64,000 nt of DNA from Aquabacterium sp. Its GTDB lineage: Bacteria > Pseudomonadota > Gammaproteobacteria > Burkholderiales > Burkholderiaceae_C. The DNA is taken from the NCBI RefSeq assembly GCF_016234775.1, contig NZ_JACRAH010000039.1:1-64000 (forward strand), read 5' to 3'. This document shows positions 31,066-56,442 of this stretch, one piece after another. A program made the position numbers and the translations under genes. Positions within the stretch are counted from its first letter, which is position 1; the number at the start of each line of letters is the position of its first letter. A model generated the notes under the pieces. It was not told where the DNA came from. It saw only the letters and a list, made by a program, of their open reading frames with translations, and made no database searches.

Positions 31066-31320
31066 ATGTCGATGAAGAAGCAACAACGTGGTCAGGGGAT
31101 GACTGAATACATCGTGATCGTGGCACTGATTGCAGTGTCTGCTATCGCAACGTACCAATTCTTCGGTCAAACCATCCGTACTCAAACGGCGGGTCTGGCG
31201 CAAGAAATTTCCGGTACCAATGCAGCTACTACCATCACTGCAGCGAAGACTAACTCTGCCGCTGCGCTGACTGAAGGTAACCGCAAGAAGAGCCTGTCCA
31301 ACTACGACAACAATCAGTGA
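31066..31320 (+). CDS. Flp/TadE-type class III pilin (probable major subunit)
   Basis: An 84-aa prepilin. A short basic leader (MSMKKQQRG) is followed by QGMTEYIVIVALIAVSAIAT; cleavage after Gly9 would place Glu at +5 and Tyr at +6, as in Flp pilins processed by TadV-type peptidases. A hydrophilic Ala/Thr-rich tail of about 45 residues follows. The ATG at 31066 has a GGAAA site upstream; an ATG two codons on is possible. First gene of the tad locus, as expected for the main pilin. Confidence 0.8.
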   Translation: MSMKKQQRGQGMTEYIVIVALIAVSAIATYQFFGQTIRTQTAGLAQEISGTNAATTITAAKTNSAAALTEGNRKKSLSNYDNNQ

Positions 31321-33651: not shown

Positions 33652-34398
33652 GTGAAGAAATTGGTCAGCGCCAGGGCTGGGGCCTTGGCATGCGTGACGC
33701 TTTGCCTGGCGCTTTTCGCTGGCTTTGCCTCCGCAGGATCGCTCAAGACCGGGCCTACGTTTGCCTTGCCTGACAGGGCGAGGTTGCAGCCCATGGATGG
33801 CGAGAATGTGATCAATGGCGTGCCCACGCGCATCACGGTGTTTTCAAGTCCAGACACGCTTGAGTCGACCGCGGCATGGTTTCGAAAGACGCTGACGCAG
33901 CCCTACACCGAAGACACGCGTGGTGGCGACATCATTTTTGGGAAGCCAGCTGAGCACCATTTCTCGACCATCAAATTGAGCGCGGTGCCTGGTGGAACCA
34001 GAGGTGTAGTAGCTGTGGCGGACCTCGAGCAAGGGGCGAAGCGCAGCAAGATCACCGAGGCTCGCATCAAGGATTGGCTGGCCGATCTGGGTGTGGAAAG
34101 CAAGGTGCTGAGCTTCAACGAGTCAGTCACGCTCGGTACTGATGCGCAAACCCTCTTGCTGGTCAATGACCGATCCCCCGCGGGCAACATCAAGGCAGTT
34201 CATCGTCTGATGGACAAGCGCGGCTTTGAGTTCGAGCGTGAGTTGTCAGATTCTAGCAAGCAGGTGGGCAGCGAGCAGGGCACAAGGACTTTGATGTTTC
34301 GTGGTCAAGCTCGCGAAGCTGTGGTCATGGTGCGTCCGCAAGCCGGGGGCCAGACGCAAGTGCTCATCAACGTGACCGTCCAGACAAAACGAGGTTGA
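33652..34398 (+). CDS. exported protein of unknown function in the tad locus
   Basis: A 248-aa protein that starts at GTG (33652), supported by an AGGGAG site five bases upstream. A signal peptide covers about residues 1-28 (ACVTLCLALFAGFASAG). The mature domain has alternating strands (RITVFSSPDTLESTAAWF, TRTLMFRGQAREAVVMV). I do not recognise a family. Between two pilin genes with short gaps, so it is probably a periplasmic part of this Tad machine. Confidence 0.72.
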   Translation: MKKLVSARAGALACVTLCLALFAGFASAGSLKTGPTFALPDRARLQPMDGENVINGVPTRITVFSSPDTLESTAAWFRKTLTQPYTEDTRGGDIIFGKPAEHHFSTIKLSAVPGGTRGVVAVADLEQGAKRSKITEARIKDWLADLGVESKVLSFNESVTLGTDAQTLLLVNDRSPAGNIKAVHRLMDKRGFEFERELSDSSKQVGSEQGTRTLMFRGQAREAVVMVRPQAGGQTQVLINVTVQTKRG

Positions 34399-34402
34399 GA
34401 CG

Positions 34403-34645
34403 ATGAAGCCTATTCGCACCGAAGACGGTCGCCCATTTCGTACTGACAGAACGTCGCGCGCGCGCTCGCAAGGGCAGGCGATGTTGGAGTACCTGGTGGT
34501 GTCAGCCGTTCTCGTCTTTGCCTTGTTTGTGCCCATCAAGGATGAGGCCAGTACAGACAAGCCGCGCACCGCGGTAGAGGTTGTTGTTCACAACTTCCAA
34601 GTCGCCTATGAGCGCATGAGTTTTTCTCTCTCCATTCCCGAGTAG
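34403..34645 (+). CDS. small pilin-like protein (second class III pilin)
   Basis: An 80-aa protein with a 24-residue leader ending SQG, then QAMLEYLVVSAVLVFALFVP: cleavage after Gly24 gives Glu +5, Tyr +6. A short hydrophilic tail follows. Only four bases separate it from the previous gene. Could be a minor pilin or initiator; its leader is longer than in typical Flp. Confidence 0.75.
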   Translation: MKPIRTEDGRPFRTDRTSRARSQGQAMLEYLVVSAVLVFALFVPIKDEASTDKPRTAVEVVVHNFQVAYERMSFSLSIPE

Positions 34646-34656
34646 TCCGTAGTCCC

Positions 34657-35646
34657 ATGAAAATCCCGAAACTGCCGAGCGTCAAGCTCAAGAAGAGCAC
34701 GGTCATCTTGCTGGTTGCCTTGTCGGTCGGCTTGCTTGCTGCATTCGCCGCACGAAGCTATCTCAGCAACCGTATGCAGGAAATCGAGGTCAAGGCCAAA
34801 GGGCGCCTGATCGACATGGTGGTGGCCAAAGTGGATCTCGACAAGGGGTCTGTTCTCGATGAAGACAGCGTGGCCGTTCGACCCATTCCCGAAGAGTTCG
34901 CGCACGCGTCCGGGATCTTGCCTCAGGACTTCGACAAGGCCTCGGGAGAGCGGCTTGCCTTCCCAGCCAAGGCGGGGCAGATCCTCATCTGGAGCATGCT
35001 TGAAAGCAAGAAGGCCCCTACGTTTTCAACGCGTGTGGAGGTCGGGCATCGTGCGATGACGGTGCCTGTTGATGAGATCAGTTCCATCTCTGGCATGTTG
35101 GAACCCGGAGACATCATCGACCTGATCGTGACAGTGGATCGTGACGGCCAGAAATACACCTTGCCCTTGCTGCAAGGTGTGACGGTGATGGCCACTGGCC
35201 AGCGCTCCACCGATGACCCTGAAGGTGCCAGTGGCCGACGCGAATATTCGACAGTCACGCTCGACACCACGCCTGAACAGGCCAAGCGCGTGATTGCCGC
35301 CAGAGAGGGTGGAAAGATCACCGCCTTGCTGCGCAATCCACAAGACAACGAGCGCATGAAGGATGGTGCCATGCAGTTGGCCGATCTGCTCATGAAGGGG
35401 CGAGCTTCTCAAGGAGGCACTGCCTTGGCTGATGGAGATGGCGTACCGATCCTGTATGGGGGCTCATCGAACAAGTTCACGCCTGAACAGCTGGAGCTGT
35501 CGCGCGCTCGTGGCAACAAGCAAAAAGAAGATGAGCCTGCAAAGGAATCAGATGCCAAGGCCAGCGGTGCGACTGACAAGTCATCACCGCAGAGTGGCCA
35601 TGACAACAAGGACAACTTGTCGAATCGAAGGTCAGAAAAGAAATAA
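34657..35646 (+). CDS. cpaB: Flp pilus assembly protein CpaB/RcpC
   Basis: A 329-aa protein with one N-terminal membrane helix (about 14-32), a SAF-type domain (about 48-115: VVAKVDLDKGSVLDEDSVAV, AGQILIW) and an RcpC/CpaB domain (about 120-235: GHRAMTVPVDEISSISGMLE, PGDIIDLIVTV). The C-terminal 60 residues are charged and disordered-looking. CpaB sits in the periplasm and works with the secretin; it directly precedes the secretin gene, the usual order. Confidence 0.9.
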   Translation: MKIPKLPSVKLKKSTVILLVALSVGLLAAFAARSYLSNRMQEIEVKAKGRLIDMVVAKVDLDKGSVLDEDSVAVRPIPEEFAHASGILPQDFDKASGERLAFPAKAGQILIWSMLESKKAPTFSTRVEVGHRAMTVPVDEISSISGMLEPGDIIDLIVTVDRDGQKYTLPLLQGVTVMATGQRSTDDPEGASGRREYSTVTLDTTPEQAKRVIAAREGGKITALLRNPQDNERMKDGAMQLADLLMKGRASQGGTALADGDGVPILYGGSSNKFTPEQLELSRARGNKQKEDEPAKESDAKASGATDKSSPQSGHDNKDNLSNRRSEKK

Positions 35647-35691: not shown

Positions 35692-38040
35692 ATGACTACC
35701 CCAAGAGTCCTCCCGTTTTCCAAAGGCCATTTCAACGCGATTGCATTGGCCTGCATAGCCATGCTGGCGTGTCATGGCCATGTCGTGATGGCGCAAACCG
35801 TGCCTGCGGCTTCCACAGACGCCGCACAAGCCAATGTGCAGACGGTCACATCAGATACCGCCAAGAACGGTTTTGCGCCGCATCTGGATGCGAAGACAAA
35901 GGCCCGTGCAGTACGCAAGAACGGTGGCTACAGCCCGGTCAAGGCACTGGAAGAGCCAGGCAATGTGCCGGAAATTGAGATGTTCGTGGGTGAATCTCGG
36001 GTGCTGCCTGCACCAGGCGTTGGCCGTATTGCGGTTGGTAACGGGCGCATCCTGACGGCCGCTGTGCTGGATAAAAAGGAAGTGCTCGTCTTCGCCAACG
36101 AGGCCGGTATTTCTTCCTTGTTTATCTGGAACGAAGACGGTCGCTACCAACGTCTGAAGATCAACATCGTGCCCGGCGACACATCACGTGTTGGCCGAGA
36201 GATCGCGGCCTTTGTTGCGGCCATTCCGGGCGCCAAGGCTTCGATCGTGGGCGACAAGGTCATCGTCGAAGGTGATCGACTTTCCGATCAGGATCTCGGC
36301 AAGATCAAGTCGTTGGAAAAGATCTACCCACAGCTTCTGAATTTCACCAACCCAAGAGGCTGGGATCAGATGGTGATGATGGATGTGAAGGTCGTGGAGT
36401 TTCCCAAGACCAAGCTCAACGAGTTGGGGCTGAAGTGGTCTCCTGTTGGCGGCGCTGCGGTTGGTGCCGTCTGGATGCCATTCCGTCATGGCAACCAAGG
36501 CCCCTATCAGATTCAGATCCCTGTTGGAGGCAGTGGCGGCAAGCCCCCTCTGGTGGACATCGATACCTCTACTGGTACGGCAAAGGACTCAACATCGCTG
36601 TACGGCGGCATCAATGCGCTGTCCGGGGTCAATATTGGTTTAAGCGCTTTGCTCCAGGCGTTGGCGCAAGAGGGCTCAGCGGCCGTGCTGGCCGAACCTC
36701 AATTGTCGACACGCAGCGGAACAGAATCGACGTTCTTGTCGGGCGGTGAGTATCCGTATACGGTTCAATCGATAGAGGGACCGCACGTCGAGTTCAAAAA
36801 GTACGGTATCTCGCTTCAGATCAAGCCCTTGGTTGACAAGGATGGTTTCATCCGAGCCGAGATCAAGAGTGAAGTGAGTTCCATTGATCCTTCCGTTAGC
36901 ACGGTTTCTGGCCCCGCAATTCGGACTAGAAGAACCGAGACCGAGTTCAACGTCAAGAGCGGTCAGACCATCGTGTTGAGTGGCCTGTTGTCGCGTGACA
37001 TGAGCACCAATTTTGACAAGGTGCCGTTCCTGGGAGATATCCCGATTCTGGGCGCTTTGTTCCGGTCGAAGCGCTACATGAACAATGAAACCGAGTTGGT
37101 GGTGTTTGTGACGCCCACGGTGGTGGACACCACAGCACCAGGTCTGGTTGATCGCGTCAACAAGACCCATGAGCGCTTGAAAGAGGCCTTTGGTGAGAAG
37201 CCTTATCTGAGCGAGCCCTTGCAACCTGCGCGCGATCTCAAGGAAGTCAATGCGCCAGTAAGTGTTTCAACTGATGCGCCGTCTGCCGATACATCTGGTC
37301 AAGGCGGATCGCGCAGTTCAACTGCGCGAGCATTGCCGGCACCAATGCCTGTGAAGCAGGTTGAGGCTGCCAAACCTCTGCCTGCAGACAATGGTGCGTT
37401 GGTCAAGCCAAACGATAATCCTCTTGTGGCTAAGAAGCCTGCCTCTACGGCTCAACCGGCCGCGATCGAAGGCAAGAGCATCGAGCAGCAGGTCACCCTG
37501 GAGGGCCTGGCGTTGCGCGCCAACCCCGATATCAACGCCCCCATCCTGATGCATCTGGGGCAAGGTGCCATCGTGCGTGTCAGTGAGTCAGGCACGGCAG
37601 GTAGTGGTGATGATGCGTGGCGCCGAGTGACAGTGGGCGCCGTTACCGGATGGTCCGCAGCGCGATGGCTGGCCCCGGTCGCCAATGTTGCACAAGCAGT
37701 TCCAGGCAAAGCAAGCAGCAATATCGGCAAGTCAGCGCAACAAGGTAAGCGCATCGAGCCGTTGAAGGCTTCCACCAAGCTTGTCGCTCGGCCATTGAGT
37801 GCGGAAGTCCCTGCGACTGCCGACACGCCGGTTGAGAAGGCTTCGCCCAAGTATCGCGTGGTCCTGCCCAAGCTGGCTCTGCGCGTGTCACCCGACGTCA
37901 ATGCCTTGATCGTGATGCAAGTACAAGAAGGCGCCATTGTGGAAGGTTTGCCTCAAGGCTCAGTCGGTGGGTGGACCGCCGTTCAGGCCGGAGATGCAAG
38001 CGGCTGGGTCGATTCCCAGTGGATCACACAGACTCGATAA
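35692..38040 (+). CDS. cpaC: CpaC/RcpA-type secretin with two C-terminal SH3b domains
   Basis: A 782-aa outer membrane secretin of the Tad apparatus. A signal peptide ends near VVMAQ. A pilus/BON-type N-terminal domain is at about 95-210. The secretin domain is about 220-490, with GLLSRDMSTNFDKVPFLGDI then PILGALFRS, and ELVVFVTPTV at its end. After a Pro/Ala-rich linker come two SH3-like modules at about 601-662 (LEGLALRANPDINAPI, GWSAARWL) and 721-782 (LPKLALRVSPDVNALI, GWVDSQWI). Usual CpaC proteins end soon after the secretin domain, so the repeats are an addition, likely for peptidoglycan or protein binding. Confidence 0.9.
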   Translation: MTTPRVLPFSKGHFNAIALACIAMLACHGHVVMAQTVPAASTDAAQANVQTVTSDTAKNGFAPHLDAKTKARAVRKNGGYSPVKALEEPGNVPEIEMFVGESRVLPAPGVGRIAVGNGRILTAAVLDKKEVLVFANEAGISSLFIWNEDGRYQRLKINIVPGDTSRVGREIAAFVAAIPGAKASIVGDKVIVEGDRLSDQDLGKIKSLEKIYPQLLNFTNPRGWDQMVMMDVKVVEFPKTKLNELGLKWSPVGGAAVGAVWMPFRHGNQGPYQIQIPVGGSGGKPPLVDIDTSTGTAKDSTSLYGGINALSGVNIGLSALLQALAQEGSAAVLAEPQLSTRSGTESTFLSGGEYPYTVQSIEGPHVEFKKYGISLQIKPLVDKDGFIRAEIKSEVSSIDPSVSTVSGPAIRTRRTETEFNVKSGQTIVLSGLLSRDMSTNFDKVPFLGDIPILGALFRSKRYMNNETELVVFVTPTVVDTTAPGLVDRVNKTHERLKEAFGEKPYLSEPLQPARDLKEVNAPVSVSTDAPSADTSGQGGSRSSTARALPAPMPVKQVEAAKPLPADNGALVKPNDNPLVAKKPASTAQPAAIEGKSIEQQVTLEGLALRANPDINAPILMHLGQGAIVRVSESGTAGSGDDAWRRVTVGAVTGWSAARWLAPVANVAQAVPGKASSNIGKSAQQGKRIEPLKASTKLVARPLSAEVPATADTPVEKASPKYRVVLPKLALRVSPDVNALIVMQVQEGAIVEGLPQGSVGGWTAVQAGDASGWVDSQWITQTR

Positions 38041-38049
38041 GGCCAGACC

Positions 38050-39942
38050 ATGCGCATTGAAGTTGAAGACTCGGATGGTGGCAAGCAGCTGCTCGAAGCG
38101 CCAGATGACTCGATTGTGGGCAAGGGCGCACAAAGCGAGATCAGGCTCAGTAGCTGGCGCGTGTCCAAAGAACACGCTCGTTTGTTCAAGACGCCTTCAG
38201 GCATCCTTGTCGAAGACATGGGTGCATTCGGCGGCGTCACGGTCAATGGCAAGCGCATCGACATTCAACATGGTCCGTTGAGGTCCACCGATGTCATTGG
38301 CGTTGGCCCCTATAAGTTGCGTGTGCTGTCTGCTCAGGATGATCGCGGGATGGCCGCTGGCCCAGCCGTCTCTGCAGCGCATGCCCAGTCTCGTTCGGAT
38401 ACGGTCGGCACGCGAAACCGCAGGGCTTCCGAGAGCCTGCAGGAGTCGCGCAACGCCGCTCTGCGAGCCCAGTCTGAGATCTATCAACGTGAGGCGCCTC
38501 GTGCTCAACCAGAGCCGCTAGAGCCCCCCAAGGCAGCTGACTTTGCAGTGATCCTGGTGCCAAGCAAGGAAGAGATCGAGCTGGAATTCGAGTGGCGCAA
38601 GAAGATTCACGATGCCCTGCTGGAGAAGATGGACCTGCGGCGTCAGGACGTCTCTCGCATGACGGACGAGCAATTGAAGCAGGAAACAGAAAGGCTGATC
38701 AAAGGCATCCTGCAAGACAAGGCAGGTGAGATTCCTCCGAGCATCAACAGGGAAGAGTTGTGTCTTCGCGTGTTGAACGAGGCTGTCGGTCTGGGGCCGC
38801 TTGAGGAATTGCTTGGTGACGATTCCGTGTCGGAAGTGATGGTCAATCGTCACGACGAAATCTTCATCGAACGTGGCGGGCAACTGCAGAAGTATCCGAT
38901 TGCCTTCACCAATGACAAGGCCGTCATGGGTGTGATCGAGCGCATTGTGGCGCCGCTGGGCCGACGGATCGACGAATCCTCGCCCATGGTGGACGCTCGT
39001 TTGAAGGATGGTTCACGTGTGAACGCGATCATCCCGCCTTTGGCGCTGAAGGGGCCGACGATCACGATCCGGAAGTTCTCCAAGAAAAAGCTGAATGCGG
39101 GTGACCTGGTCAAGTTCGGTTCCATCGACGAACAGATGGCAGAGTTCTTGAAGATCTGCGTGGAGTCCCGCAAGAACATCGTGGTGTCGGGCGGTACAGG
39201 TTCCGGCAAGACAACCCTGTTGAACATCCTGTCCAACTTCATCCCCAGGGGGGAGCGGATCATCACGGTTGAAGATGCGGCCGAGTTGCAGCTGTCTCAC
39301 GAACACCTGATCAATCTGGAATCACGTCCATCCAACGTTGAAGGGCGAGGCGGCGTGTCCATTCGCGAATTGGTCAAGAACACCTTGCGTATGCGCCCCG
39401 ACCGCATCGTGGTGGGCGAGTGCCGCGGTGCCGAGGCGCTGGACATGCTTCAGGCCATGAACACGGGTCACGAAGGCTCGCTCACCACGCTTCACGCCAA
39501 TACGCCGCGAGACGCCTTGGCGCGTCTGGAAACCATGATCCTGATGGCAGGCATGGAGTTGCCACTATCGGCCATTCGCGAACAGATCGCCTCAGCCGTG
39601 GACATCATCGTCCAGCAGACCCGATTCCACTGCGGTAGCCGTCGTGTCACCTACATCGTCGAGATCACCGGTATCGAAAGCGGGAAGCTCCAGATGCAGG
39701 AGCTGTTCCGATTCATCCCTCGTGGACATGACCCCATCACGGGCAAGACAACGGGCTTTTTCACCGGTTGCAACATGGTCCCGAGCTTCTACGAGGAACT
39801 CTCGCAGACATCGCATGGACTGGACGTCAACATCTTCAAGGCCATCGATCCTGAAAGTCTTGAACAGTTGTCGGGACATCGAATGGGTGATCGAAGCAAT
39901 TCGAGTGGCAGAGATGGTCTGGCCATGGACCTGTCCCACTGA
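38050..39942 (+). CDS. tadA: TadA/CpaF-family ATPase with N-terminal FHA domain
   Basis: A 630-aa cytoplasmic motor ATPase for pilus assembly or secretion. Residues about 1-95 form an FHA domain (DDSIVGKGAQSEIRLSSWRV, SKEHARLF, VTVNGKRI), which normally binds phosphothreonine. A linker leads to the CpaF ATPase: Walker A GGTGSGKTT at 381-389, Asp box ITVEDAAELQL, RMRPDRIVVGECRG (Walker B region) and SLTTLHANTPRDAL. FHA is not part of the canonical TadA. Confidence 0.92.
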   Translation: MRIEVEDSDGGKQLLEAPDDSIVGKGAQSEIRLSSWRVSKEHARLFKTPSGILVEDMGAFGGVTVNGKRIDIQHGPLRSTDVIGVGPYKLRVLSAQDDRGMAAGPAVSAAHAQSRSDTVGTRNRRASESLQESRNAALRAQSEIYQREAPRAQPEPLEPPKAADFAVILVPSKEEIELEFEWRKKIHDALLEKMDLRRQDVSRMTDEQLKQETERLIKGILQDKAGEIPPSINREELCLRVLNEAVGLGPLEELLGDDSVSEVMVNRHDEIFIERGGQLQKYPIAFTNDKAVMGVIERIVAPLGRRIDESSPMVDARLKDGSRVNAIIPPLALKGPTITIRKFSKKKLNAGDLVKFGSIDEQMAEFLKICVESRKNIVVSGGTGSGKTTLLNILSNFIPRGERIITVEDAAELQLSHEHLINLESRPSNVEGRGGVSIRELVKNTLRMRPDRIVVGECRGAEALDMLQAMNTGHEGSLTTLHANTPRDALARLETMILMAGMELPLSAIREQIASAVDIIVQQTRFHCGSRRVTYIVEITGIESGKLQMQELFRFIPRGHDPITGKTTGFFTGCNMVPSFYEELSQTSHGLDVNIFKAIDPESLEQLSGHRMGDRSNSSGRDGLAMDLSH

Positions 39943-39959: not shown

Positions 39960-40820
39960 ATGAATGGATCACAAGTAGTTATTGTGTTGTCGCTGGTCAT
40001 CGCTTTGTCGGTGGCCTTGCTGGCCTGGTTCATCGTGGATGTCGGTACAGCTGGTGTGGCACGTTATCGAGCCAGGTTCACTGAGCGGGTCAAGTTCCAG
40101 GCTCGGGAGTTCTTTCTCTTCATTGATCCGGGCCAACTGTTCCTGGCCAATATCGCCATCATGGCCCTGGGCAGCGCCTTGGCATGGATGATGTCGGAGA
40201 GCCTGGTAGTTGTGCTTATCGTGCTGGGCCTGTTGGGCGCGATGCCCCGCGTGTTGTACGCCCTCATGCGCAAACGACGCTTGCAGCGCTTCGAAGAGCA
40301 GTTGCCTGACTCCTTGATGATCCTGGCTGGTGGTTTGCGCGCAGGTCTTGGTCTGACCGCCGCGCTGCACCAGTTGGTGGCCGAAGCGCGTGCCCCTCTG
40401 GCGCAAGAGTTTTCCTTGATGTTGCGTGAACAGCGTCTGGGCGTGACGCTGGAGCAAAGCCTCAACAACCTGACCCGACGTGTGCCGGTTCAGACCGTGG
40501 TGCTGGTTGTGTCCGCCATGCGTGTGGCCATCGAGACAGGTGGTGGTTTGGCTGAAACATTAGAGCGCACCTCCGTGATGATCCGCAATCGCATGCAGAT
40601 GGAAGGGAAGATTCAAGCGCTGACAGCACAAGGAAAGATGCAGTTGTGGGTGGTCGGATTCCTGCCAATCGGCTTGATGCTGATTCTTAACAAAATGGAA
40701 CCTGAGGCCATGGCCAACCTCTGGCATACGCCCCTGGGTTGGGGCGTGCTGGCCGTGCTGACATTCCTGGAGTGCATGGGTGTCTACATGGTCCGCAAGA
40801 TCGTCACGATCGATGTTTGA
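39960..40820 (+). CDS. tadB: TadB inner membrane platform protein
   Basis: A 286-aa T2SSF/TadB-type membrane protein. Helices are near the N-terminus (VIVLSLVIALSVALLAWFIV), around 60-95, and at the C-terminus. The T2SSF core SLMILAGGLRAGLGLTAALH and LAETLERTSVMIRNR is clear. Partner of TadC in the inner membrane platform driven by TadA. Eighteen bases after tadA. Confidence 0.88.
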   Translation: MNGSQVVIVLSLVIALSVALLAWFIVDVGTAGVARYRARFTERVKFQAREFFLFIDPGQLFLANIAIMALGSALAWMMSESLVVVLIVLGLLGAMPRVLYALMRKRRLQRFEEQLPDSLMILAGGLRAGLGLTAALHQLVAEARAPLAQEFSLMLREQRLGVTLEQSLNNLTRRVPVQTVVLVVSAMRVAIETGGGLAETLERTSVMIRNRMQMEGKIQALTAQGKMQLWVVGFLPIGLMLILNKMEPEAMANLWHTPLGWGVLAVLTFLECMGVYMVRKIVTIDV

Positions 40821-40834
40821 TCGAGGTTGTCTTC

Positions 40835-41749
40835 ATGGATCAGATCATCAATAACCCCTCGACCGTCTTCTTTGGCATTGCCCTGGCAGTGGGTATGAGC
40901 GTGGCCGCTTGTGTCTGGCTGCTCAGCAAGGTGATTGCGGATGTGCCACTGGAAGATCGGGAGTTCAAGGATCCTCCGCCTGTTGGCTTCCGCCTGTTGT
41001 GGTGGCCCATTCAATTGGTGAGCCATTTCATTTCGCCCTTGATCAATGAGGCACGTTGGAACAAGGTGGCCAGTTCGTTGATACGGGCCGGCCTGGAATT
41101 TTGCTTGACGCCCGGCCAGTTCACCGCCTCACGGTGGGTCGGTGCTGTGGTCGTGGCGCTCTTCATGTGCCTGGTTCTGAGCATCCTCCCGTTCGCAAGC
41201 ATCGGGCCAACGACGTATGTCTATACCTCGCTGTTTGCTGGCGTGTTTGGTTGGATTTATCCGGCCATCTGGCTCAGCGAGCGCATCACGGCCCGCAAGA
41301 AGGAATTGCTCAAGACCTTGCCTTTCGTGCTGGATCTGGTCACCTTGTGCGTGGAGGCCGGCCTGAACATTCAAGGCGCCATGGCTCAGGCTGTCGCCAA
41401 GGGCCCGCATGGCGTGCTGCGCGACGAGTTCATGCGTGTGCTGAGAGACATTCGTGCGGGCAAGCAGCGTGCTGACTCTTTGCGAAGGATGACGGCGCGA
41501 CTGCGTGAACCCGGCGTGACGTCGTTCGTGACAGCGGTGATCCAGGCAGAAGCGATGGGCATGAGCCTGGGCCCGGTCTTGCGGGCGCAGGCAGATCAAC
41601 GACGAAGCGAACGGTTCTTGCGTGCAGAGAAGGCCGCCATGGAAGCGCCAATCAAGATGCTGTTTCCGCTGATTGTCTTCATCTTTCCTTGCACGTTCAT
41701 TGTGTTGTTCTTCCCCATCGTCATCAAGTTCATGGCGTCCGGTTTTTGA
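40835..41749 (+). CDS. tadC: TadC inner membrane platform protein
   Basis: A 304-aa paralogue of TadB with T2SSF core LPFVLDLVTLCVEAGLNIQG and SFVTAVIQAEAMGMSLGPVL and terminal helix FPLIVFIFPCTFIVLFFPIV. The ATG at 40835 (MDQIINNPS) was chosen: the longer reading from 40739 begins inside tadB. Fifteen bases after tadB. Confidence 0.88.
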   Translation: MDQIINNPSTVFFGIALAVGMSVAACVWLLSKVIADVPLEDREFKDPPPVGFRLLWWPIQLVSHFISPLINEARWNKVASSLIRAGLEFCLTPGQFTASRWVGAVVVALFMCLVLSILPFASIGPTTYVYTSLFAGVFGWIYPAIWLSERITARKKELLKTLPFVLDLVTLCVEAGLNIQGAMAQAVAKGPHGVLRDEFMRVLRDIRAGKQRADSLRRMTARLREPGVTSFVTAVIQAEAMGMSLGPVLRAQADQRRSERFLRAEKAAMEAPIKMLFPLIVFIFPCTFIVLFFPIVIKFMASGF

Positions 41750-41796: not shown

Positions 41797-43509
41797 ATGG
41801 GAATATCGCGTCGCGCCTCTGGCGCCATTCGGACCGTCAGCGGTTCACACGCGCTCGACATCCGTATTGCTGACAGCTTCTGGTCTCGGTTCAAAGGTCT
41901 GATGCTGACCCGTGAGCTGAAGGACGATGCTGGCCTGCTGTTGAAAAAGTGCAGCAGCATCCACACAGCGTTCATGCTGTACCCGATTGACCTGCTTTAT
42001 GTCGATGACTCGGGCGTTGTGCTTCAGACATCGGGAACCATTCGTCCCTGGTCGACGGACAGGTTCAGAGGTCAGGGCTTGTTTGTCTTGCCTTGGCGCC
42101 GTACGCGTGTACACGCGGTGGAGTTGCCCGCTGGCACGATCTCGGGGCTGTCGATTCGGCCAGGCGATGTGCTGAACGATGGCACATCTTCACCAAGCGA
42201 TGTGACATTGGCTTCCCAGCCTTCCAAGCTGGCGCATTCAAAAGAGCGCGGAGCGGCCTTGGTCGAGTTCGCAGTGGTAGGGCCACTGATCACGCTCTTT
42301 GGTTTGGGCACAGCGCAGTATGGCTTGTTGTTCAACGCCAAGAACATGGTCAATCACTCTGCCTTCATGGCCGCTCGCGCTGGATCCTTTGGCAATGCCA
42401 ATATCGACACCATTCGAACAGCGTATATCCGTGGCTTGATCCCGCTTTATGGTGGTGTCAAGAACGTAGGCGACATTGCTCCTTTGTTGACGAAAATTGG
42501 TGAAGACACAGTTGGGCATATCAAGATAGAGGTGCTCAGCCCAACGAAGGAGAGCTTCGAGGACTGGAACGACCCACGTTTGCAGAAGCTGTTGGATACC
42601 AAGGGCAAGCGAGTCATCCCCAACCGTAACCTCGCTCGTAATCTGTCTGACAAGAGCGCGTTGATGGCGCTTGGTGTCAACCACACGGTCTCGAACATCG
42701 AGAACAACTGGGTGAAGTCCAAGTCTGGCCAAAGTCTGCAGGATGCGAACATTCTGAAGTTGCGCATCACCCATGGTTATGAGCCCAAGGTGCCGGTGAT
42801 GAAGACCATCTACATGGCCTACCTCCGTTGGCTCAATACGGAGCCTGCTGCAGATTTTCGAACGCTGCAAATTGAATCCGGCCGCATCCCGATCGTGTCC
42901 CACGTGACGGTGCAAATGCAGACGGATGCGATTGAGTCTGATAACACCTCCATTCCTGGCATGGGCAATGCGGGCAAGCCCAAGGATCCTGGTGTACCAC
43001 CCAAGCCCAAGAACGAGCCACCCAAGTGCCAGACCATTCTTTGTTCTGATCCTGAGCAGTCTTTGGAGCCTATCGTTGATGGTGGCGGCCCCTCGGACGG
43101 CGGTTCGTGCCCTATTCCCAAAACCGAGGTGTCTCTGGACTCGGACGTGCTGTTTGCGTTCGGCAAGTCGGATCTCACGGCGGATGGCAAAGCGAAACTG
43201 GACAAACTGATTGCCGACGCCAAGGCAGCCAAGGACAAGGGCGAGACCTATGCCAGCGTGAACGTGATTGGCCATACCGATCAACTCGGCAGCCCGGCGA
43301 TCAATGACCCGCTGTCTCTGGCGCGCGCCAAGGCGGTCAAGGACTATCTCGTGTCCAAGGGCTTCCCAACCGGGCAATACACGATCGAAGGGAAGGGCTC
43401 CAGAGCGCCTGTGGTGTCCATGTCGGCCTGCGAGGGTAAGACGGATGCCGCGTTGAAGGACTGCCTGGCGCCTAACCGCCGTGTGGTCATCGAGTTGATC
43501 AAAGGTTGA
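41797..43509 (+). CDS. DUF192-TadE-OmpA fusion protein
   Basis: A 570-aa three-part protein in one uninterrupted frame. Residues about 8-126 are a DUF192 domain (SRFKGLMLTREL, SIHTAFMLYPIDLLYVDD, RTRVHAVELPAGT). Residues 150-195 are a TadE-like stem: KERG, then AALVEFAVVGPLITLFGLGT, and a pseudopilin-type domain to about 380. A Pro-rich hinge (390-440) leads to an OmpA C-terminal domain (443-570: FAFGKSDLTADGKAKLD, IGHTDQLGSPAINDPLSLAR, NRRVVIEL). Cleavage after Gly152 would give Glu +5, Phe +6, so prepilin peptidase could release DUF192. The TadE-OmpA half suits a peptidoglycan-anchored minor pilin. The role of DUF192 is unknown. Confidence 0.85.
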   Translation: MGISRRASGAIRTVSGSHALDIRIADSFWSRFKGLMLTRELKDDAGLLLKKCSSIHTAFMLYPIDLLYVDDSGVVLQTSGTIRPWSTDRFRGQGLFVLPWRRTRVHAVELPAGTISGLSIRPGDVLNDGTSSPSDVTLASQPSKLAHSKERGAALVEFAVVGPLITLFGLGTAQYGLLFNAKNMVNHSAFMAARAGSFGNANIDTIRTAYIRGLIPLYGGVKNVGDIAPLLTKIGEDTVGHIKIEVLSPTKESFEDWNDPRLQKLLDTKGKRVIPNRNLARNLSDKSALMALGVNHTVSNIENNWVKSKSGQSLQDANILKLRITHGYEPKVPVMKTIYMAYLRWLNTEPAADFRTLQIESGRIPIVSHVTVQMQTDAIESDNTSIPGMGNAGKPKDPGVPPKPKNEPPKCQTILCSDPEQSLEPIVDGGGPSDGGSCPIPKTEVSLDSDVLFAFGKSDLTADGKAKLDKLIADAKAAKDKGETYASVNVIGHTDQLGSPAINDPLSLARAKAVKDYLVSKGFPTGQYTIEGKGSRAPVVSMSACEGKTDAALKDCLAPNRRVVIELIKG

Positions 43510-43550: not shown

Positions 43551-46500
43551 ATGAACGAAAAACGAATTCAAGGTAAGGGCCGATTCCTCAACCTGCTGGC
43601 GAGTGCATCGCTTGTTTTGGCAGCTCTGCAATCGGTGCATGCGCAAAGCTCTTCACCGTCATCAAGTTCCGCCTCCTCGTCCTCATGTGGTGCGCCGGCC
43701 ACCGGCCCTGGTGCGTGCGTAGCGGACCAGCCCGCGAGCAAACCTGACCCCAGTCCGACTGCGTCAGCAAGCAATCCCATCAACACGATAACGGGCAACA
43801 AGTATCAGCGAGAGGTTGACTTACCTGCATTGCCAGGCGTGCTGGGCCTCGAGATTGTTCGCCACTACAACAGCGACTTCAGTGGCCTCAAGAACACCAA
43901 CGGGATCATGGGGCGGGGGTGGAAACTGTCCTACGAGACGCGACTGTCCGTTCAGGGGGCTCACCTGGAGGTGATTCAGGCTGACGGTCGGCGTATTGCC
44001 TTCCAAAAGGAGTTGATGACAGGGCAAGCCGGTGGAGCCAGTCCAAGCGACGGCAAGATCGTTATTCGCGCCGGTAACCAAGGACCTGAGTACACGTGGG
44101 TGTGGCCCAGTGGCAGAAAGCTGACCTTTGACGCACAAGGCAAGTTGCTGCAGATCGCTGCACCGACGGGTGAGTTCGTCACGCTTCAATATGATCCGAA
44201 GGGCCTGTTGATTCAAGTGATCGACCCACAGGGGCGTCGTTTGAAGTTGAACTACCCCGAACGGAGCGTGGCAGAGGCTGGCCGCTTCAAGGGCGTGCAA
44301 AGCGTCGACTCACCCGTTGGCCGCTTTGTGTACGAGTACGGCAGCCCGATACCCAAGGAGGCGAAGGTTGCTGTGCATCAACTGGCGGCCAACCTTGTTC
44401 GGGTTCAGATTCCGACACAGTACAACGCAGATACACCTGCACACGGTTTGACAAGTCGCGGAGCGAGCAGCAGTGACCTTGCACGTATCTACCACTATGA
44501 AGATGCGCGCTTTCCCACCTTGCTGACGGGGATCAGCGTTCAAGGCAAGGACGGGAAATCGAAAGCTGACCGTATCGAACGACTGGCTACCTACGGCTAC
44601 GATGAACGTGGCTGGGCCGTTCGATCCGTGCATGGTTATGGCATTGAGTTGGCTCACATCGATAGAGCGGATGAGCGCAATGCTGGTCACGCAGTTCTGG
44701 TTCACAGCAAGTCGGCACAGTCTCCTCAAGGGCAGAAGCTGGAAATATGGAGCCGGCAGATTGCCGGGGCCTATCGCATCACCGAAACACGTGGTGTGGC
44801 TTGTCCTACTGTCGTACCTTGTCCTGAAGCCAACATGCGCTATCGGTACGACGATCGCGGTCTGGTGATTGAGGCCATCAAGCTGGATGCGCAAGGTTTG
44901 GCGTTGCAGGGCACGCGTACTGAATACGATGTCGTGGCCCGCCCTGTGAGAGTGACGAAGGTTGAGTACCAGAACGGAAAGCCGGTTGGCGAGCACATGC
45001 GTGTTCGCTATGAGTATGGTGGTTTGCCTGCCAATCACAGACAACAACGCGACGAGCCAGTCAACGTTTACAGCGACAAGCCTGTATTGATCGCCGTGCC
45101 CAGCGTAGTACCTGGGCAGGAGCACAAGCTACATATCGAATACAACGAATTCGGTCAGCCCACCCGGATCACAGATACGGGTTGGTCTCCCGCGGTAGCT
45201 GATCAAGCTTCAACGCTGCTGCAGCGTGTGACCACGAACCGGTATGCCCGTATCAATGGACGGAGCGTGTTGCGTGCATCCGATGGCCCTTTGCCAGGTG
45301 ACAAGGACACCACGCAATTCGAGTGGGAAGAGCACGCCAATTTCGTGGTGCAAACGCAGTATCCCAATGGCATGCGAGTACGGATGGAGCGAGATGAGGC
45401 AGGACGGCCCACGGTTCAATCATTGATGGACGCGAATCGCCGAATTCAGTACGTCAACACCTATCTCCCTTCAGGCAAGATCGCCAAGTCGGTGCGATCA
45501 GCCATGTTTGACCAGGGCACCGAACTGAGAGAAGAAGTTGTTCAGTCTTTCGACGTGTTTGGTGGCCTTGCCAGCTTTCAGGACTCGCAGACAGGCCCGT
45601 GGCAGATTCAAGCAGATGAGCGTGGTCGCATGACTTCGATTCAAGACGTGCGTGGCAGGGAATTGGCGTTCGTCCATAACGAGCAAGACCAGTTAATGGC
45701 TTGGATTGCTCGTGATGTCGACAAATCAGTACGAGATGGTCGTTGGAATTTCTTCGGTCAACAAGGTGAGTTGCTCGATGCGACGGTGCCGCGACAGGGG
45801 AACGCGGCGGAAGCCGTGCTTTCGGGCTTTGAGTATGGGGAGAATCTGTCTCGGCCGAAGTTTCAGCACATTGCTTATCAGGCAGAAGAACCCTCCACTC
45901 AGCCCGAAGCCGCTCGCTTCAAGCCGCGCAGTTTCAAAGCGGCATTCGATGACTTTGGACGAGTCGTCCGCGATTCCAGCCCCGTAGAGGGTGATATTCG
46001 GTATCACTTCGGGATGAACCAGACCGGATCCTGGCGCGAAAAGATTCATACAGATCTGGGGGGGCAGTCGAGCCAGCGAGAGCGGCTTGAGTTTGATCAT
46101 GCAGGGCGGCTGACCAAACGTATCAGGGGTGACTGTGTTGAGCGATTGGTCTACGAGGGGCAGTTGGTTCGAGAACTGCTTGGCTGTGGCGCCCGAACCG
46201 TGTATTCGAGAGACGCATGGGGGCGCATCACCGAGCAAGTCAAGCACGTTGGCGAAAAGGTGTTCACGGAGCGCTTTGCCTACGACGCCTCTGGCTGGAT
46301 GAACAAGCGGCAGTTGGTGGGGGGCGATGTACTCTATTACGAACGCTTGCCGCAGTCTTCGGAATTGAAAGGCGTATTTTTGGAGTCGCCGTGGTTGAAG
46401 TCGATTCGTCTGCACGTGAGCGATGCACTGGCTGATGCCATGGTCCAGGCGCTTCCCAGGGGATGGACACAGACCACGGTCATGGACATGCGCGTCGCGC

Positions 46501-48563
46501 GCTTCTGGGACAGTCAGCCTGTCAAATGGCAAACGGTCGGCGGCGCAGTGATAGAACACTTGCACACGCGAGAAGGTCGGGTTGGTCGTATCACGGCGTC
46601 GGATGCTTCCAGCAAAGAACTGGTCTCCATGTCTTACAGGTACGATGAACTCGGTTTGACGAGATCCGTCGAGGCGCAAAACTGGAGCCTGAATCAGGGG
46701 GCAAAGCCGCAGCCTTCGGTTTTCCAATATGGTCCGCAGCGTGGCGCGCTGATACGTGCGGGCATGTCGGCTTCAGTGCGGGCGTCTGTCAATGTCGTCG
46801 CTGCCGGTACGCCGGAGCGATTCGATGGATTTGGTCGTGTTGTCGAGCGCACAACGAGGAAAGCTGGCAAGCCGGTCTTGCAAGGGTTTGACTATGACGC
46901 TGCTGGCCGATTGTCTGCTGTCAAAGAAGGTGGCTCGGTTGTAGCCACCTATCAATATGACGCTCATGGGGACCGCGTCGCCAAGTCAGTTTGGGCTCAT
47001 GGCAAGTCCAGCACAACCTACTTCGTTTATGACAGCAAGCACAGACTGTCAGCAGAGGTCTTGCCTGATGGGCATGTCAATCAATATTTATATGATGGAT
47101 ACGCGCCATATGCGATGCTGTCGAACGGCGAACCCTTGGCCGTGCATACGGATGCACGCGGTATGCCAGTTGCCTTGAGTGATGTGCGTCAGCAGGTGGT
47201 GTGGCGGGGAGAATTTGATCCAGACGGCAACGTGTTGCGTGAAGAGGGTTCCGGATCCGTCAAGCTGAGGATGCCTGGCCAGGTGTTCGATGAGGAGACC
47301 GGGCTCTACTTCAACGTCAACAGGTACTACGATCCGTCATCGGGTCGCTATATCACCCCTGACCCATTGGGGTGGACCCACGGTGAGGGGGCATACGATT
47401 ATGTTGGCGGTCATCCTTTGGATGGTAGTGACCCACTGGGGCTCTTCGAAATTCCGACATTGGATTTCTTTGGCATCAGTTCGGCGCCGCTAACTGATGA
47501 GGGGCATGGCGATATTGTCAGAGTCGCATTTCAATTGTATGCGGCCCAGAATCATGAGCAAAGGTTCTCCCAGGAGATTATTGATCAGATTGTGTTGAAT
47601 AACTATCACACGGATGCGGCTTCATCGATTTTTGGTGGCGGCGGTGGACAGTTTGTGGCCAAGAATCACTTCGATAATCCAAATGACGGACCGATGTATC
47701 TGGACAAGGAGATGACCAAGTTGAATCCTGATTACAATAATCTGTCCTGGATAAAGAATTCGGTGGATCAACTTAATGCTAATCGAGGGGGTTACGGTCT
47801 TGTTGTTGCTTATAAATCGGGGGTGGGTGATATTTCAGAGATCATGTCCAGTTTTGGTCGAAGCACACACACGCTGGCAGACTTTTACGCCCACACCAAT
47901 TGGGTTGATGATCCCAGTCGCGGAGGCTGCGTGGATAACAAGCGTCTTATCGGCAAGAACGAAGTGGGTTATGTGCCGTATGGGCTTGGCAAGACAGAGG
48001 TTTGGAATGAGGATGTGTCGGACTCCGCCTTGAAGGTGCTATACAGTGGAACGGTGAGTTTGGAGCCGAGTGCGGCTTTGGGTTGTATCAATGACATCAG
48101 TTGCTCGGAGGATAAGACCACTCATGGTTATTGGGCAAAGGATGCGGATGGTCCATCAGTTTTTACTGATGATCAGATCAAGAAGTATGCAGCCAAAGGT
48201 TTGAAGTTTTATGGTGTTCATGAATACGAGCCTGGCATGAGTGTTGATGGTCAGGCTTTGGTGCCAGAAGATTATGGGGTTTCCTGGTGGGCGGAAGATG
48301 CTGCGACGGGCGTCCGTAAGAACGCATTTGCTGACGTGAAGAAGGGTGATCGCATATATGTCAAGCAAGACATCTATAATTCCCATCGTTTGGCCAAGGC
48401 GCTGGCCATTCAGGCTACCATCAACGAAATTGATAAGTTGTACAAGGCGGCCGCGGGAGTTAAAGTGGGTAGTCTGCTTTTGACGGATGTTTTCAAGATG
48501 GAAAAAGCTAGGCTGGATAAAGAGAAGGTAGAGTACGACAGATATCCGGCAAAGAATAACTGA
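43551..48563 (+). CDS. secreted RHS-repeat protein with HET-C-like C-terminal domain
   Basis: 1670 aa from the ATG at 43551 (the TTG at 43506 overlaps the previous gene). A Sec-type signal peptide ends near SVHAQ, then a Ser-rich segment and a DUF6531-like start (NTITGNKYQREVDLPALPG). Many YD/RHS repeats (YDYDAAGRL-type, for example FDYDAAGRLSAVKEGG) build the shell. The RHS core ends with ETGLYFNVNRYYDPSSGRY, ITPDPLGW and DPLGL (residues 1294-1298). The last ~370 residues are unlike the core and contain HGDI, YHTDA, NHFDN and HTLADFYAH (His1440, Asp1444, His1448), resembling HET-C/zinc phospholipase C-type domains. Lower GC in this tail. Probably a toxin or adhesin; identity of the tail is tentative. 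Confidence 0.85.
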   Translation: MNEKRIQGKGRFLNLLASASLVLAALQSVHAQSSSPSSSSASSSSCGAPATGPGACVADQPASKPDPSPTASASNPINTITGNKYQREVDLPALPGVLGLEIVRHYNSDFSGLKNTNGIMGRGWKLSYETRLSVQGAHLEVIQADGRRIAFQKELMTGQAGGASPSDGKIVIRAGNQGPEYTWVWPSGRKLTFDAQGKLLQIAAPTGEFVTLQYDPKGLLIQVIDPQGRRLKLNYPERSVAEAGRFKGVQSVDSPVGRFVYEYGSPIPKEAKVAVHQLAANLVRVQIPTQYNADTPAHGLTSRGASSSDLARIYHYEDARFPTLLTGISVQGKDGKSKADRIERLATYGYDERGWAVRSVHGYGIELAHIDRADERNAGHAVLVHSKSAQSPQGQKLEIWSRQIAGAYRITETRGVACPTVVPCPEANMRYRYDDRGLVIEAIKLDAQGLALQGTRTEYDVVARPVRVTKVEYQNGKPVGEHMRVRYEYGGLPANHRQQRDEPVNVYSDKPVLIAVPSVVPGQEHKLHIEYNEFGQPTRITDTGWSPAVADQASTLLQRVTTNRYARINGRSVLRASDGPLPGDKDTTQFEWEEHANFVVQTQYPNGMRVRMERDEAGRPTVQSLMDANRRIQYVNTYLPSGKIAKSVRSAMFDQGTELREEVVQSFDVFGGLASFQDSQTGPWQIQADERGRMTSIQDVRGRELAFVHNEQDQLMAWIARDVDKSVRDGRWNFFGQQGELLDATVPRQGNAAEAVLSGFEYGENLSRPKFQHIAYQAEEPSTQPEAARFKPRSFKAAFDDFGRVVRDSSPVEGDIRYHFGMNQTGSWREKIHTDLGGQSSQRERLEFDHAGRLTKRIRGDCVERLVYEGQLVRELLGCGARTVYSRDAWGRITEQVKHVGEKVFTERFAYDASGWMNKRQLVGGDVLYYERLPQSSELKGVFLESPWLKSIRLHVSDALADAMVQALPRGWTQTTVMDMRVARFWDSQPVKWQTVGGAVIEHLHTREGRVGRITASDASSKELVSMSYRYDELGLTRSVEAQNWSLNQGAKPQPSVFQYGPQRGALIRAGMSASVRASVNVVAAGTPERFDGFGRVVERTTRKAGKPVLQGFDYDAAGRLSAVKEGGSVVATYQYDAHGDRVAKSVWAHGKSSTTYFVYDSKHRLSAEVLPDGHVNQYLYDGYAPYAMLSNGEPLAVHTDARGMPVALSDVRQQVVWRGEFDPDGNVLREEGSGSVKLRMPGQVFDEETGLYFNVNRYYDPSSGRYITPDPLGWTHGEGAYDYVGGHPLDGSDPLGLFEIPTLDFFGISSAPLTDEGHGDIVRVAFQLYAAQNHEQRFSQEIIDQIVLNNYHTDAASSIFGGGGGQFVAKNHFDNPNDGPMYLDKEMTKLNPDYNNLSWIKNSVDQLNANRGGYGLVVAYKSGVGDISEIMSSFGRSTHTLADFYAHTNWVDDPSRGGCVDNKRLIGKNEVGYVPYGLGKTEVWNEDVSDSALKVLYSGTVSLEPSAALGCINDISCSEDKTTHGYWAKDADGPSVFTDDQIKKYAAKGLKFYGVHEYEPGMSVDGQALVPEDYGVSWWAEDAATGVRKNAFADVKKGDRIYVKQDIYNSHRLAKALAIQATINEIDKLYKAAAGVKVGSLLLTDVFKMEKARLDKEKVEYDRYPAKNN

Positions 48564-48571
48564 GGGTATCT

Positions 48572-49441
48572 ATGTTGAAAATGGTGAGCTCGATTTTCAA
48601 GTCCACGAGGATTCCGCAGCGTTTTGGTGTGAGCGCCGCCATGTTGACGTTTGCCTCCTGTGCATGCGCCATTGAACGATCAGACGTGATGGTTTGTGGT
48701 TTCGAAGATGGCAGTGAGGCCACACTGAAAGCAACGCATGATTGGTCCCCTGTGGGGGCCTTGGCGGGCCTCATTGGGGATGTGTCGAGTAGAAGAAATC
48801 AAAGCGGGTACACCGCTTACTTCCAAGCGGGTAATGGCAAGTCAAGCAAGGCGCCGCGCGGCGCCATGTTTGGCATTCCAATCGATCAGGGCAAGTTGGT
48901 CCAGTCGATCGGTGTGCGCTTGTGCTCGGAGGTGGCCGTGTGGCGTGGCCGGCCCTTGGTCAATGGCGCTTTTTTAGCCGATGAGGGGGGGTGGCAGGAC
49001 ATGGCATTCTCGGCTCGCCGATTGCCACTGCATTTCGAAGATATGCCTGGCTGGGTGAGTGCTTATCTTCGTAAATACGATGGATGGCCGGCGCGTGGCG
49101 GTAATTTTGTTGCGCCGGTCGGCGATGTGTTGGTCAGCGAGCAACCCATTGGGGATGCAAAGGCCAAATACGTGGTTAGCGCTGTCTACCAAAGTATTTC
49201 CAGGGATGGTGGAAAAACCTGGGATGCTCCGGTCCTGACACCACATGCCTATATTTTTGAGATCGGGCGGGTCATGGTGGATCAGAGCTTTGTGGGGCGC
49301 CCATTGACGTATGAAGGACAAAAATTCCAAGCGCCCAAATTCACACGTCCTCAAACGCAGGAAGAGAGGAACGAAGCGATTCAGAAGTTACCCGTGCATT
49401 GGCAAAGGGTGATCTCTGGCTCGGGCACCCCAGGCGGGTAG
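48572..49441 (+). CDS. exported protein downstream of the RHS gene; candidate immunity protein
   Basis: A 289-aa protein with an apparent signal peptide (SAAMLTFASCACA, cleavage near residue 33). The mature part has no family I know; it holds several aromatic-rich segments (LPLHFEDMPGWVSAYLRKYD) and two or three cysteines. The GAGGG ribosome binding site overlaps the RHS stop region, so translation is likely coupled. Position directly after a polymorphic toxin-type tail, plus a signal peptide, fits a periplasmic immunity protein, but it could equally be an accessory protein. Confidence 0.65.
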   Translation: MLKMVSSIFKSTRIPQRFGVSAAMLTFASCACAIERSDVMVCGFEDGSEATLKATHDWSPVGALAGLIGDVSSRRNQSGYTAYFQAGNGKSSKAPRGAMFGIPIDQGKLVQSIGVRLCSEVAVWRGRPLVNGAFLADEGGWQDMAFSARRLPLHFEDMPGWVSAYLRKYDGWPARGGNFVAPVGDVLVSEQPIGDAKAKYVVSAVYQSISRDGGKTWDAPVLTPHAYIFEIGRVMVDQSFVGRPLTYEGQKFQAPKFTRPQTQEERNEAIQKLPVHWQRVISGSGTPGG

Positions 49442-49464: not shown

Positions 49465-50448
49465 ATGCGCAATTGGCTTCGGATTTCTTTGGCGCTCCTG
49501 CCGCTCATATGTGCTCACGCGGTCATGGCGGCTTGCGGACCTGTTTCTGTCGAGCGCACCCAATTCGAGGTGGCGCACTCCGGACCTGTTTGCCTCGGTC
49601 ACGACATCACTCGGCCAGGCGAAATCTTTGCCTGGATGAATGGTGGCGAAACATCAGCCGGTGGTGCCGTGGGTTACCTTGGTGCCTCTAAGGTTGAACT
49701 GGACCTGCGGGGGCACACCATCTTGGCGAAGAGGGTAGGCGTGAGCGCCTTGCACGACGCCGCAAAGCGATTGACGTCTGACGACTATCCCGTTGGGCTG
49801 GTGATTCGCAATGGCAAGTTGATCAGCGCGACCGCCAGCGGCGTTGTACTGGACGATTTATTTGGTGATGTCTTTCTGAGCTTGAAGAGTGAGGTTGAGC
49901 GTTTCTGTGCCGACGGCAGGTCTTCAGATTACGTGAAGGCTTGCGTGAAAGATTGGTACGAAGATGAGCTGGGCGTCCTTCAGCGCATGAAGCGTAATGT
50001 TCCCCGTACCGGGCATCGCCTGGAGCAGTTGGATGTGTCTGCCGAGCGTGTTGCCGTGGCGATCAAGGGCAGTGGCAATGTGGTGCGCCAGAACCAGTTG
50101 AAGGTGACCGGGTGCGGCGTCAACATCTACCTGATTGGTGGCAATCAGGTGATCGAGGGCAACACCATCGTGGTCAGTGGCGCACGTTGCAGCCCTGCAG
50201 ACGCCCCGATCAGGCTGCATGTGGGCGACAACAGCGTGATTCGCAACAACACGATCATCATTGAAGGTTGGGGCGACAGGCCTGACGCGGCGATCAGCGT
50301 CATTGACAGCCAGAACGTCCTGATCGAGAACAACAAGGTCGTTGGGGCCAAGACGCTTTACAAGATCTGGGACGAGGATTCTGGTCAGAAGAGTTCCGTG
50401 ACGGAGCGCGGCAACGAAATGAAGTCCTCGTGGCTTGGCTGGAAATAG
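49465..50448 (+). CDS. secreted right-handed parallel beta-helix protein
   Basis: A 327-aa protein with a signal peptide (RISLALLPLICAHAVMA). The C-terminal two thirds show short repeated rungs (VVRQNQLKVTGCG, NQVIEGNTIVVSGA, SVIRNNTIIIEGWG, NVLIENNKVVGA), the hallmark of right-handed beta-helix (NosD/pectate-lyase-like) proteins. No catalytic motif seen. A few cysteines may form disulfides. Last gene before a strand change; 23 bases after the previous gene. Confidence 0.75.
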   Translation: MRNWLRISLALLPLICAHAVMAACGPVSVERTQFEVAHSGPVCLGHDITRPGEIFAWMNGGETSAGGAVGYLGASKVELDLRGHTILAKRVGVSALHDAAKRLTSDDYPVGLVIRNGKLISATASGVVLDDLFGDVFLSLKSEVERFCADGRSSDYVKACVKDWYEDELGVLQRMKRNVPRTGHRLEQLDVSAERVAVAIKGSGNVVRQNQLKVTGCGVNIYLIGGNQVIEGNTIVVSGARCSPADAPIRLHVGDNSVIRNNTIIIEGWGDRPDAAISVIDSQNVLIENNKVVGAKTLYKIWDEDSGQKSSVTERGNEMKSSWLGWK

Positions 50449-54204: not shown

Positions 54205-54207
54205 GGT

Positions 54208-56439: not shown

Positions 56440-56442
56440 GGC

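Follow-up and report, generated by a model that had tools for sequence, protein, structure and literature searches.

An RHS protein with a toxin-like tip and immunity-like genes at the end of a Tad operon in Aquabacterium, and its probable coupling to a Kil-like Tad machine

The window, i.e., the whole analysed stretch of 64,000 nucleotides (G000:C23:1-64000), belongs to an Aquabacterium genome of 4.27 Mb in 68 contigs. It carries a set of Tad genes, an RHS gene and two further downstream genes, which form a single run on the plus strand. The run opens with a Flp/Fap-like pilin (31066..31320), whose match to PF04964 (E 4.2e-4) lies below the cut-off and which has positional homologues in relatives, followed by a TadG-like protein (31349..32821; PF13400 Tad). 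A TadE/F-like protein of uncertain start (32803..33630), a protein of no named family with a signal-like start (33652..34398) and a small protein that appears pilin-like by eye (34403..34645) are devoid of Pfam matches and have positional homologues in relatives. Next come CpaB/RcpC (34657..35646; TIGR03177 at E 2.9e-45, PF16976), a secretin with a C-terminal SH3 domain (35692..38040; PF00263 at E 2.1e-44, PF08239), a TadA ATPase with an N-terminal FHA domain (38050..39942; PF00437 at E 4.1e-67, PF00498 at E 2.7e-9), TadB (39960..40820) and TadC (40829..41749), both matching PF00482, and a DUF192-TadE-OmpA fusion (41797..43509; Pfam matches to all three). In terms of Pfam and NCBIfam families this is the component set of a Tad (type IVc) system: Flp pilin (below cut-off), CpaB, secretin, TadA, TadB, TadC, and TadE/G. 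The single prepilin peptidase found in the genome (PF01478) is located outside the operon, on contig C68.

The TadE part of the fusion protein was modelled as a long N-terminal helix with an alpha/beta head (pLDDT 71.8), and this model fits a minor pilin; a comparison with the PDB returned nothing at 1e-3 (best E 0.74). Two of ten other TadE proteins scanned also carry the peptidoglycan-binding OmpA domain, and these two (L102 8106-9833; L106 8053-9771) come from the two Aquabacterium loci in the scan. A lipoprotein-like gene at 29768-30832 precedes the operon, and its relatives are situated in or beside other tad-RHS loci (L102 16321-17355; L162 3576-4622; L063 6526-7656). Possibly, it represents an accessory part of such loci.

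The RHS gene (43551..48563, plus strand) starts with an ATG at 43551 and its stop codon ends at 48563, giving a protein of 1,670 amino acids. As the initial annotation had stated, it lies on the same strand as the DUF192-TadE-OmpA gene, which stops at 43509, and begins 41 nucleotides further on. Neither a promoter-like nor a terminator-like site was found in this gap, a scan that says little because its counts do not exceed those of shuffled sequences. From start to end, the protein is composed of a signal, a two-cysteine linker, an RHS shell, a core end and a toxin-like tip, with Pfam and NCBIfam matches to DUF6531, RHS_repeat (E 1.6e-30), YD_repeat_2x, and Rhs_assc_core (E 4.8e-17). The Sec signal claimed earlier is borne out by the predicted peptide at 43551..43643, which by eye shows a basic start, a hydrophobic core and the junction VHA/Q, and by the relatives: 41 of 43 tad-linked RHS genes with an intact start passed a crude signal test, as did 19 of 22 unlinked and 7 of 10 unplaced ones.

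Between signal and shell, alignment with the relatives delimits a linker with two cysteines (43644..43772), which we conjecture to be a docking tail. The corresponding pattern, a cysteine pair followed by GNP, occurs in 42 of 50 tad-linked named genes and misses the window's own protein, since the window has SNP. The linker was considered as a mark of tad linkage and rejected as such, the pattern being just as common in named RHS genes that are unlinked or unplaced (30 of 32). At the core end, D[PA]xG motifs occur as a pair, and 74 of 80 complete relatives share them, including 37 of the 41 tad-linked ones. In Rhs proteins of the type VI secretion system (T6SS), an aspartyl autoprotease with the DPLGL motif is described to release the tip (PMC8636562). 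In a tree of RHS N-termini (89 rows, quick method), the window groups with four Aquabacterium loci at an SH-aLRT support of 100. With tandem second copies scored as unlinked, tad linkage is clustered on this tree without forming one clade (20 changes versus 29.2 for shuffled labels).

Beyond the core-end motif, the window protein extends by about 370 residues. When 82 proteins or pieces were compared over their 230 C-terminal residues, the tips sorted into six clusters and seven singletons, and ten tips were run against Pfam. Cluster A (41 members) resembles Tle1-like phospholipases (L110, E 1.1e-19), while clusters B (12) and E (4) both match DUF6765 (L102, E 2.9e-15; L112, E 2.8e-12). Among the tested tips of cluster C (10), cluster F (4) and three singletons, no match to a toxin-naming Pfam family was found. 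Cluster D comprises four members including the window, whose tip (47439..48560) matches VWA7_N at 27.3 bits (cut-off 27.5) and Het-C at 14.5 bits (cut-off 21), i.e., under both curated cut-offs. HxD and HxxxDxxxH are invariant across three homologues, and these are two of the Het-C motifs given in PMC3482391. An AlphaFold model from three sequences reached a pLDDT of 36.6, and a search against PDB sequences gave two chance-level matches and nothing of note. We would expect the window tip to act as a metal hydrolase of the Het-C-like kind, either a phospholipase or a nuclease. The 41 complete tad-linked genes are distributed over tips A (25), B (7), F (3), D (2), E (1), C (1), and two singletons; as far as sequence clusters can tell, the tad-linked RHS gene is one kind of slot that receives different tips.

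Two genes with signal-like starts follow the RHS gene at gaps of 8 and 23 nucleotides. The first (48572..49441, plus strand) is probably the cognate immunity gene. All three further loci with a type-D tip (L109, L160, G512) have a homologue, and the formal association reaches a p value of just 0.018 because only one of these three entered the count. The second (49465..50448, plus strand) encodes a beta-helix protein (PF13229) and is probably an orphan immunity gene for tip type B. Among genes with 700 nucleotides of downstream sequence, a homologue directly follows 9 of 9 tip-B genes versus 0 of 47 others (p 1.3e-10). Outside this formal count, the tip-B gene of G532 and a piece from G512 that ends close to the edge of its own stretch show no such homologue downstream. 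Since homologues of the two genes accompany tip-D and tip-B genes, respectively, the window seems to hold a cognate immunity gene followed by an orphan one. Along the same line, members of two families stand downstream of 26 of 33 tip-A genes versus 0 of 31 others (p 7e-12), and 21 of these 26 downstream genes contain a lipobox-like motif. The first genes downstream of F tips and of the tips of L107 and L111 reveal no clear signal, which would suit tips that act in the cytoplasm. On these grounds the RHS protein and its downstream immunity gene very probably constitute a polymorphic toxin system. As a separate observation, at three loci (L120 7095-9846; L125 15014-19964; L138 14998-21603) the tip-B RHS gene is followed by an array of three to five genes homologous to 49465-50448, which resembles an immunity bank.

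The initial annotation had proposed comparative genomics to check for a conserved adjacency of tad and RHS genes, and this adjacency recurs. In a family sample of 299 genomes, where most matches to the upstream gene fall on its OmpA part, the TadE part was matched in 11 other genomes among the matches listed. Five of these 11 carry an RHS gene directly after TadE on the same strand (G013, G027, G115, G238, G251). In G219, a signal-bearing ORF whose last residues are GNPIH occupies the RHS place and is interrupted by the contig end. Of ten TadE neighbourhoods inspected (G102 was left out), four (G240, G076, G010, G259) consist of a tad operon without an RHS gene at that place. A search with the RHS N-terminus, in which four candidates were scored per genome, found matches in 9 of the 299 genomes, G239, G067 and G152 among them: in G239 a tad operon lies upstream, with 3.4 kb from TadE to RHS, the match in G067 is located at a contig start, and that in G152 has no tad genes. 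The window's genus is represented in this sample by three further genomes, none of which gave an RHS N-terminal match.

At higher taxonomic levels, the order sample of 300 genomes shows the tad-RHS arrangement also in G512 and G353. In the class sample, with three candidates scored per genome, the RHS profile matched 23 of 369 genomes, and 20 stretches from 19 genomes, out of 24 listed places, were taken as neighbourhoods. G625 has a tad operon with DUF192 approximately 0.6 kb ahead of the RHS gene, where TadE was not detected, and G862 has TadE immediately before the RHS gene with no other tad gene detected. No tad gene was found ahead of the RHS gene in the remaining stretches, several of which are short contigs.

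For the named genomes, we used the best 80 (76 loci) of 181 stretches confirmed by a profile of the RHS N-terminus, and 79 RHS genes were parsed from them. TadE lies upstream on the same strand in 38 of the 60 RHS genes with at least 3 kb of upstream sequence, a share biased upward because the profile was built mostly from tad-linked genes. In 37 of these 38, the TadE stop precedes the conserved LGLE motif by a few hundred nucleotides, and in L162 it is 3 kb away. A separate count placed TadA, TadB or TadC within 8 kb of 37 of the 60 genes. The hosts in which TadE precedes the RHS gene include Aquabacterium, Massilia, Duganella, Janthinobacterium, and Collimonas, and further Noviherbaspirillum, Herminiimonas, Thiobacillus, Thauera, and Solimonas. 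Two irregular loci were noted. In L117 (8244-13195) the start of the RHS gene lies not behind TadE but within the last part of the secretin gene, and the contig stops before the RHS gene is complete; L143 (1-3932) is a short contig of a Chloroflexi-labelled metagenome-assembled genome whose RHS gene is close to the remaining, mostly betaproteobacterial ones and which is possibly mis-binned.

Both gene families also tend to occur in the same genomes when their genes are apart. The order sample, treated as one draw, was scanned with one profile for RHS and another for TadE. With the RHS cut-off at its preset value of 1e-15, this type of TadE was found in 16 of 40 RHS genomes versus 20 of 260 others (p 6e-7), and at a cut-off of 1e-35, chosen post hoc, in 12 of 13 strong-RHS genomes versus 24 of 287 others (p 1.7e-11); these p values are indicative only, because the genomes are related (7 of the 12 belong to one family) and the window's genome is included. 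In the 12 genomes with both, RHS adjoins tad in three, stands apart in seven, and is unplaced in two. Genomes picked for an unlinked or unplaced RHS copy possess this type of TadE in 19 of 22 cases and no TadE match in three; as G397 and G966 are apparently one genome, the count becomes 18 of 21. Two genomes of this set, G957 and G963, contain another RHS copy right after TadE.

One could read the adjacency as hitchhiking, with RHS cassettes landing at the end of the operon without a functional tie. Such an origin would be in line with the tandem and broken copies in G512 and with a linkage that does not form one clade in the tree, but order and strand are kept at 33-48% sequence identity and the two families co-occur in trans, which makes mere hitchhiking very improbable. 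Since the adjacency recurs at this level of divergence and co-occurrence extends to genes that are apart, there is good support for a functional link of this RHS type with this Tad type, which we consider highly likely on comparative grounds. The G512 locus (L079 844-18370) deserves separate mention: tandem RHS genes follow the tad operon there, and some of them are split into several frames.

Both the RHS shell and the Tle1-like tip are frequent features of T6SS effectors, so an effector of that system sitting by chance beside a tad operon had to be considered. The initial annotation had reported no T6SS markers. This holds for the locus, where neither the RHS protein nor the operon proteins scanned match the PAAR, VgrG or Tap families in Pfam and NCBIfam, and does not hold for the genome as a whole: two VipB/TssC genes are present on contigs C34 and C35 (L178, L179), so T6SS genes exist elsewhere in it. 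VipB was likewise found in five of nine other tad-RHS genomes. The remaining four have no VipB, however, and the signal-like start (41 of 43 tad-linked relatives), the missing PAAR match and the recurrent tad adjacency all speak against a T6SS carrier. Carriage by the T6SS was therefore rejected as the main reading, and a chance neighbour of this kind appears hardly credible.

With respect to gene architecture, T6SS Rhs effectors nevertheless offer a close comparison, sharing the RHS shell, the aspartyl autoprotease at the core end, the C-terminal toxin and the immunity gene (PMC8636562). In place of their PAAR region, the window protein has a Sec-type signal and a short linker, and its neighbourhood is a tad operon. 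The claim that a Tad-RHS link was undescribed can be kept in part only. Bdellovibrio has Bd0109, an RHS-family protein that bears a signal and whose gene is co-transcribed with those of a type IVb/Tad system, and the authors of that work associate homologues of Bd0109 with Tad pili of other bacteria (PMC3818213); encoded at the hit/Tad locus, Bd0109 has 62.5 kDa and binds Bd0108 (PMC3818213, PMC4267844, PMC5430801). By description, the window likewise holds a signal-bearing RHS protein in a Tad operon, but one of full length with a core-end motif, a toxin-like tip, and immunity-like genes. In the open-licence PMC literature, no paper was found that describes toxin tips and immunity genes for RHS genes linked to tad. 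Relative to the published descriptions of Bd0109, the tips and the immunity-like genes are what differs here, the presence of an RHS protein in a Tad operon being already known. The initial annotation mentions neither the toxin-like tip and these genes nor the FHA domain of TadA.

Bd0109 was proposed to regulate pilus extrusion (PMC3818213). Transferred to the window, the RHS protein would be a periplasmic or wall-associated regulator or a structural part of the pilus, with the tips as a secondary matter, and the Bdellovibrio protein, with its signal and its co-transcription with type IVb/Tad genes, lends this some weight. Bd0109 is described without a protease and without a variable end (PMC4267844), however, while several unrelated tips and tip-specific downstream genes are found here, and some Tad operons lack an RHS gene next to them. 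We thus regard a primarily regulatory or structural role as quite unlikely.

The Kil system of Myxococcus xanthus is a Tad-like machine for contact-dependent killing, whose hexameric ATPase KilF is fused to an FHA domain (PMC8460266). The TadA of the window is FHA-fused in the same manner, with PF00498 and PF00437 on one protein. The minor-pilin tips of Kil filaments are exchangeable (PMC12075869), and killing requires T3SS* (PMC8460266, PMC12075869); according to the authors, the toxin is yet to be discovered and it is unclear whether Kil secretes (PMC8460266). The main texts of both papers do not mention Rhs. Kil is tied to contact-dependent killing, for which the window system is a candidate. 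A second parallel is TcpF, the secreted protein of the toxin-coregulated pilus operon, whose N-terminus hooks the minor pilin TcpB (PMC9565799). Both are cases of a pilus operon that also codes for an exported protein, with the difference that TcpF is not an RHS protein and that minor-pilin binding is only conjectured for the window RHS.

Taken with the FHA-fused TadA, the gene content makes us favour a polymorphic RHS toxin-immunity cassette that is coupled to a Kil-like Tad machine and delivered by it, a reading to which we attach a modest preponderance of belief. The RHS protein would cross the inner membrane via Sec, and Tad-dependent display or delivery is inferred to follow. Its shell would fold in the periplasm and enclose the C-terminal toxin. 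The Tad filament or the TadE minor pilin may then capture the protein, perhaps through the two-cysteine N-terminal linker; loading on TadE is deduced from the minor-pilin tips of Kil (PMC12075869) and the TcpF-TcpB hooking (PMC9565799). Subsequently, the protein would pass the secretin and reach either the cell surface or a bacterium in contact with it, and passage over the outer membrane by means of Tad is somewhat probable in our estimation. At its destination the aspartyl-protease motif at the core end would release the tip, and the product of 48572-49441 would restrain the window tip in the producer's periplasm. Several points stand against this reading: a large RHS shell would have to pass the Tad secretin, Tad operons without RHS and RHS copies apart from tad exist, the three genomes of the same genus in the family sample gave no RHS match and three of the 22 RHS genomes no TadE match, the tip-B gene of G532 is not followed by a homologue of 49465-50448, the Pfam matches of the window tip stay under their cut-offs and its structure model is of low confidence, and the window's genome contains VipB.

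An exit other than Tad has to be weighed at this point. The RHS protein could be a surface-located or secreted toxin that leaves through type II secretion or unaided in a CDI-like manner, the tad operon contributing shared expression or an adhesive pilus. The myxobacterial Rhs4 and Rhs5 are likewise large, signal-bearing, T6SS-independent RHS proteins; they act in kin discrimination and are thought to be surface-located, and the account in PMC10433427 mentions no Tad linkage for them, a difference from the window RHS. Unlinked RHS copies are common, and adhesion is the best-known role of Tad pili (PMC8460266). Against this, the co-occurrence with TadE when the genes are apart exceeds what shared expression would call for, although it could also arise if both depend on cell contact. 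On balance we consider another exit unlikely.

A more specific form of Tad delivery, and one that we advance tentatively and would not bet on, sees the Tad filament as a toxin launcher: the RHS warhead would sit on the TadE tip via its linker and be driven through the secretin upon contact, gated by FHA signalling. The OmpA domain fused to TadE might grip the peptidoglycan of the target. If the launcher reading were true, polymorphic toxins would have a delivery route of a separate kind, and there would be a hint at the sort of effector used by Kil-type machines, with Bd0109 as a tipless relative.

In general, the combination of a tad operon, a polymorphic toxin and immunity-like genes makes the question of Tad-mediated killing testable in environmental isolates, for which Aquabacterium, Massilia, Duganella, Janthinobacterium, and Collimonas are suited genera. 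If Tad delivery holds true, Tad would be one more carrier of RHS toxins besides those already known, and the RHS protein encoded at the hit locus of Bdellovibrio, which has no tip, would gain a context. Further along the window, three signalling genes of ordinary kind are located on the minus strand (52393-60630), encoding a GGDEF protein, a receiver-PAS-GGDEF-EAL protein, and a hybrid histidine kinase.
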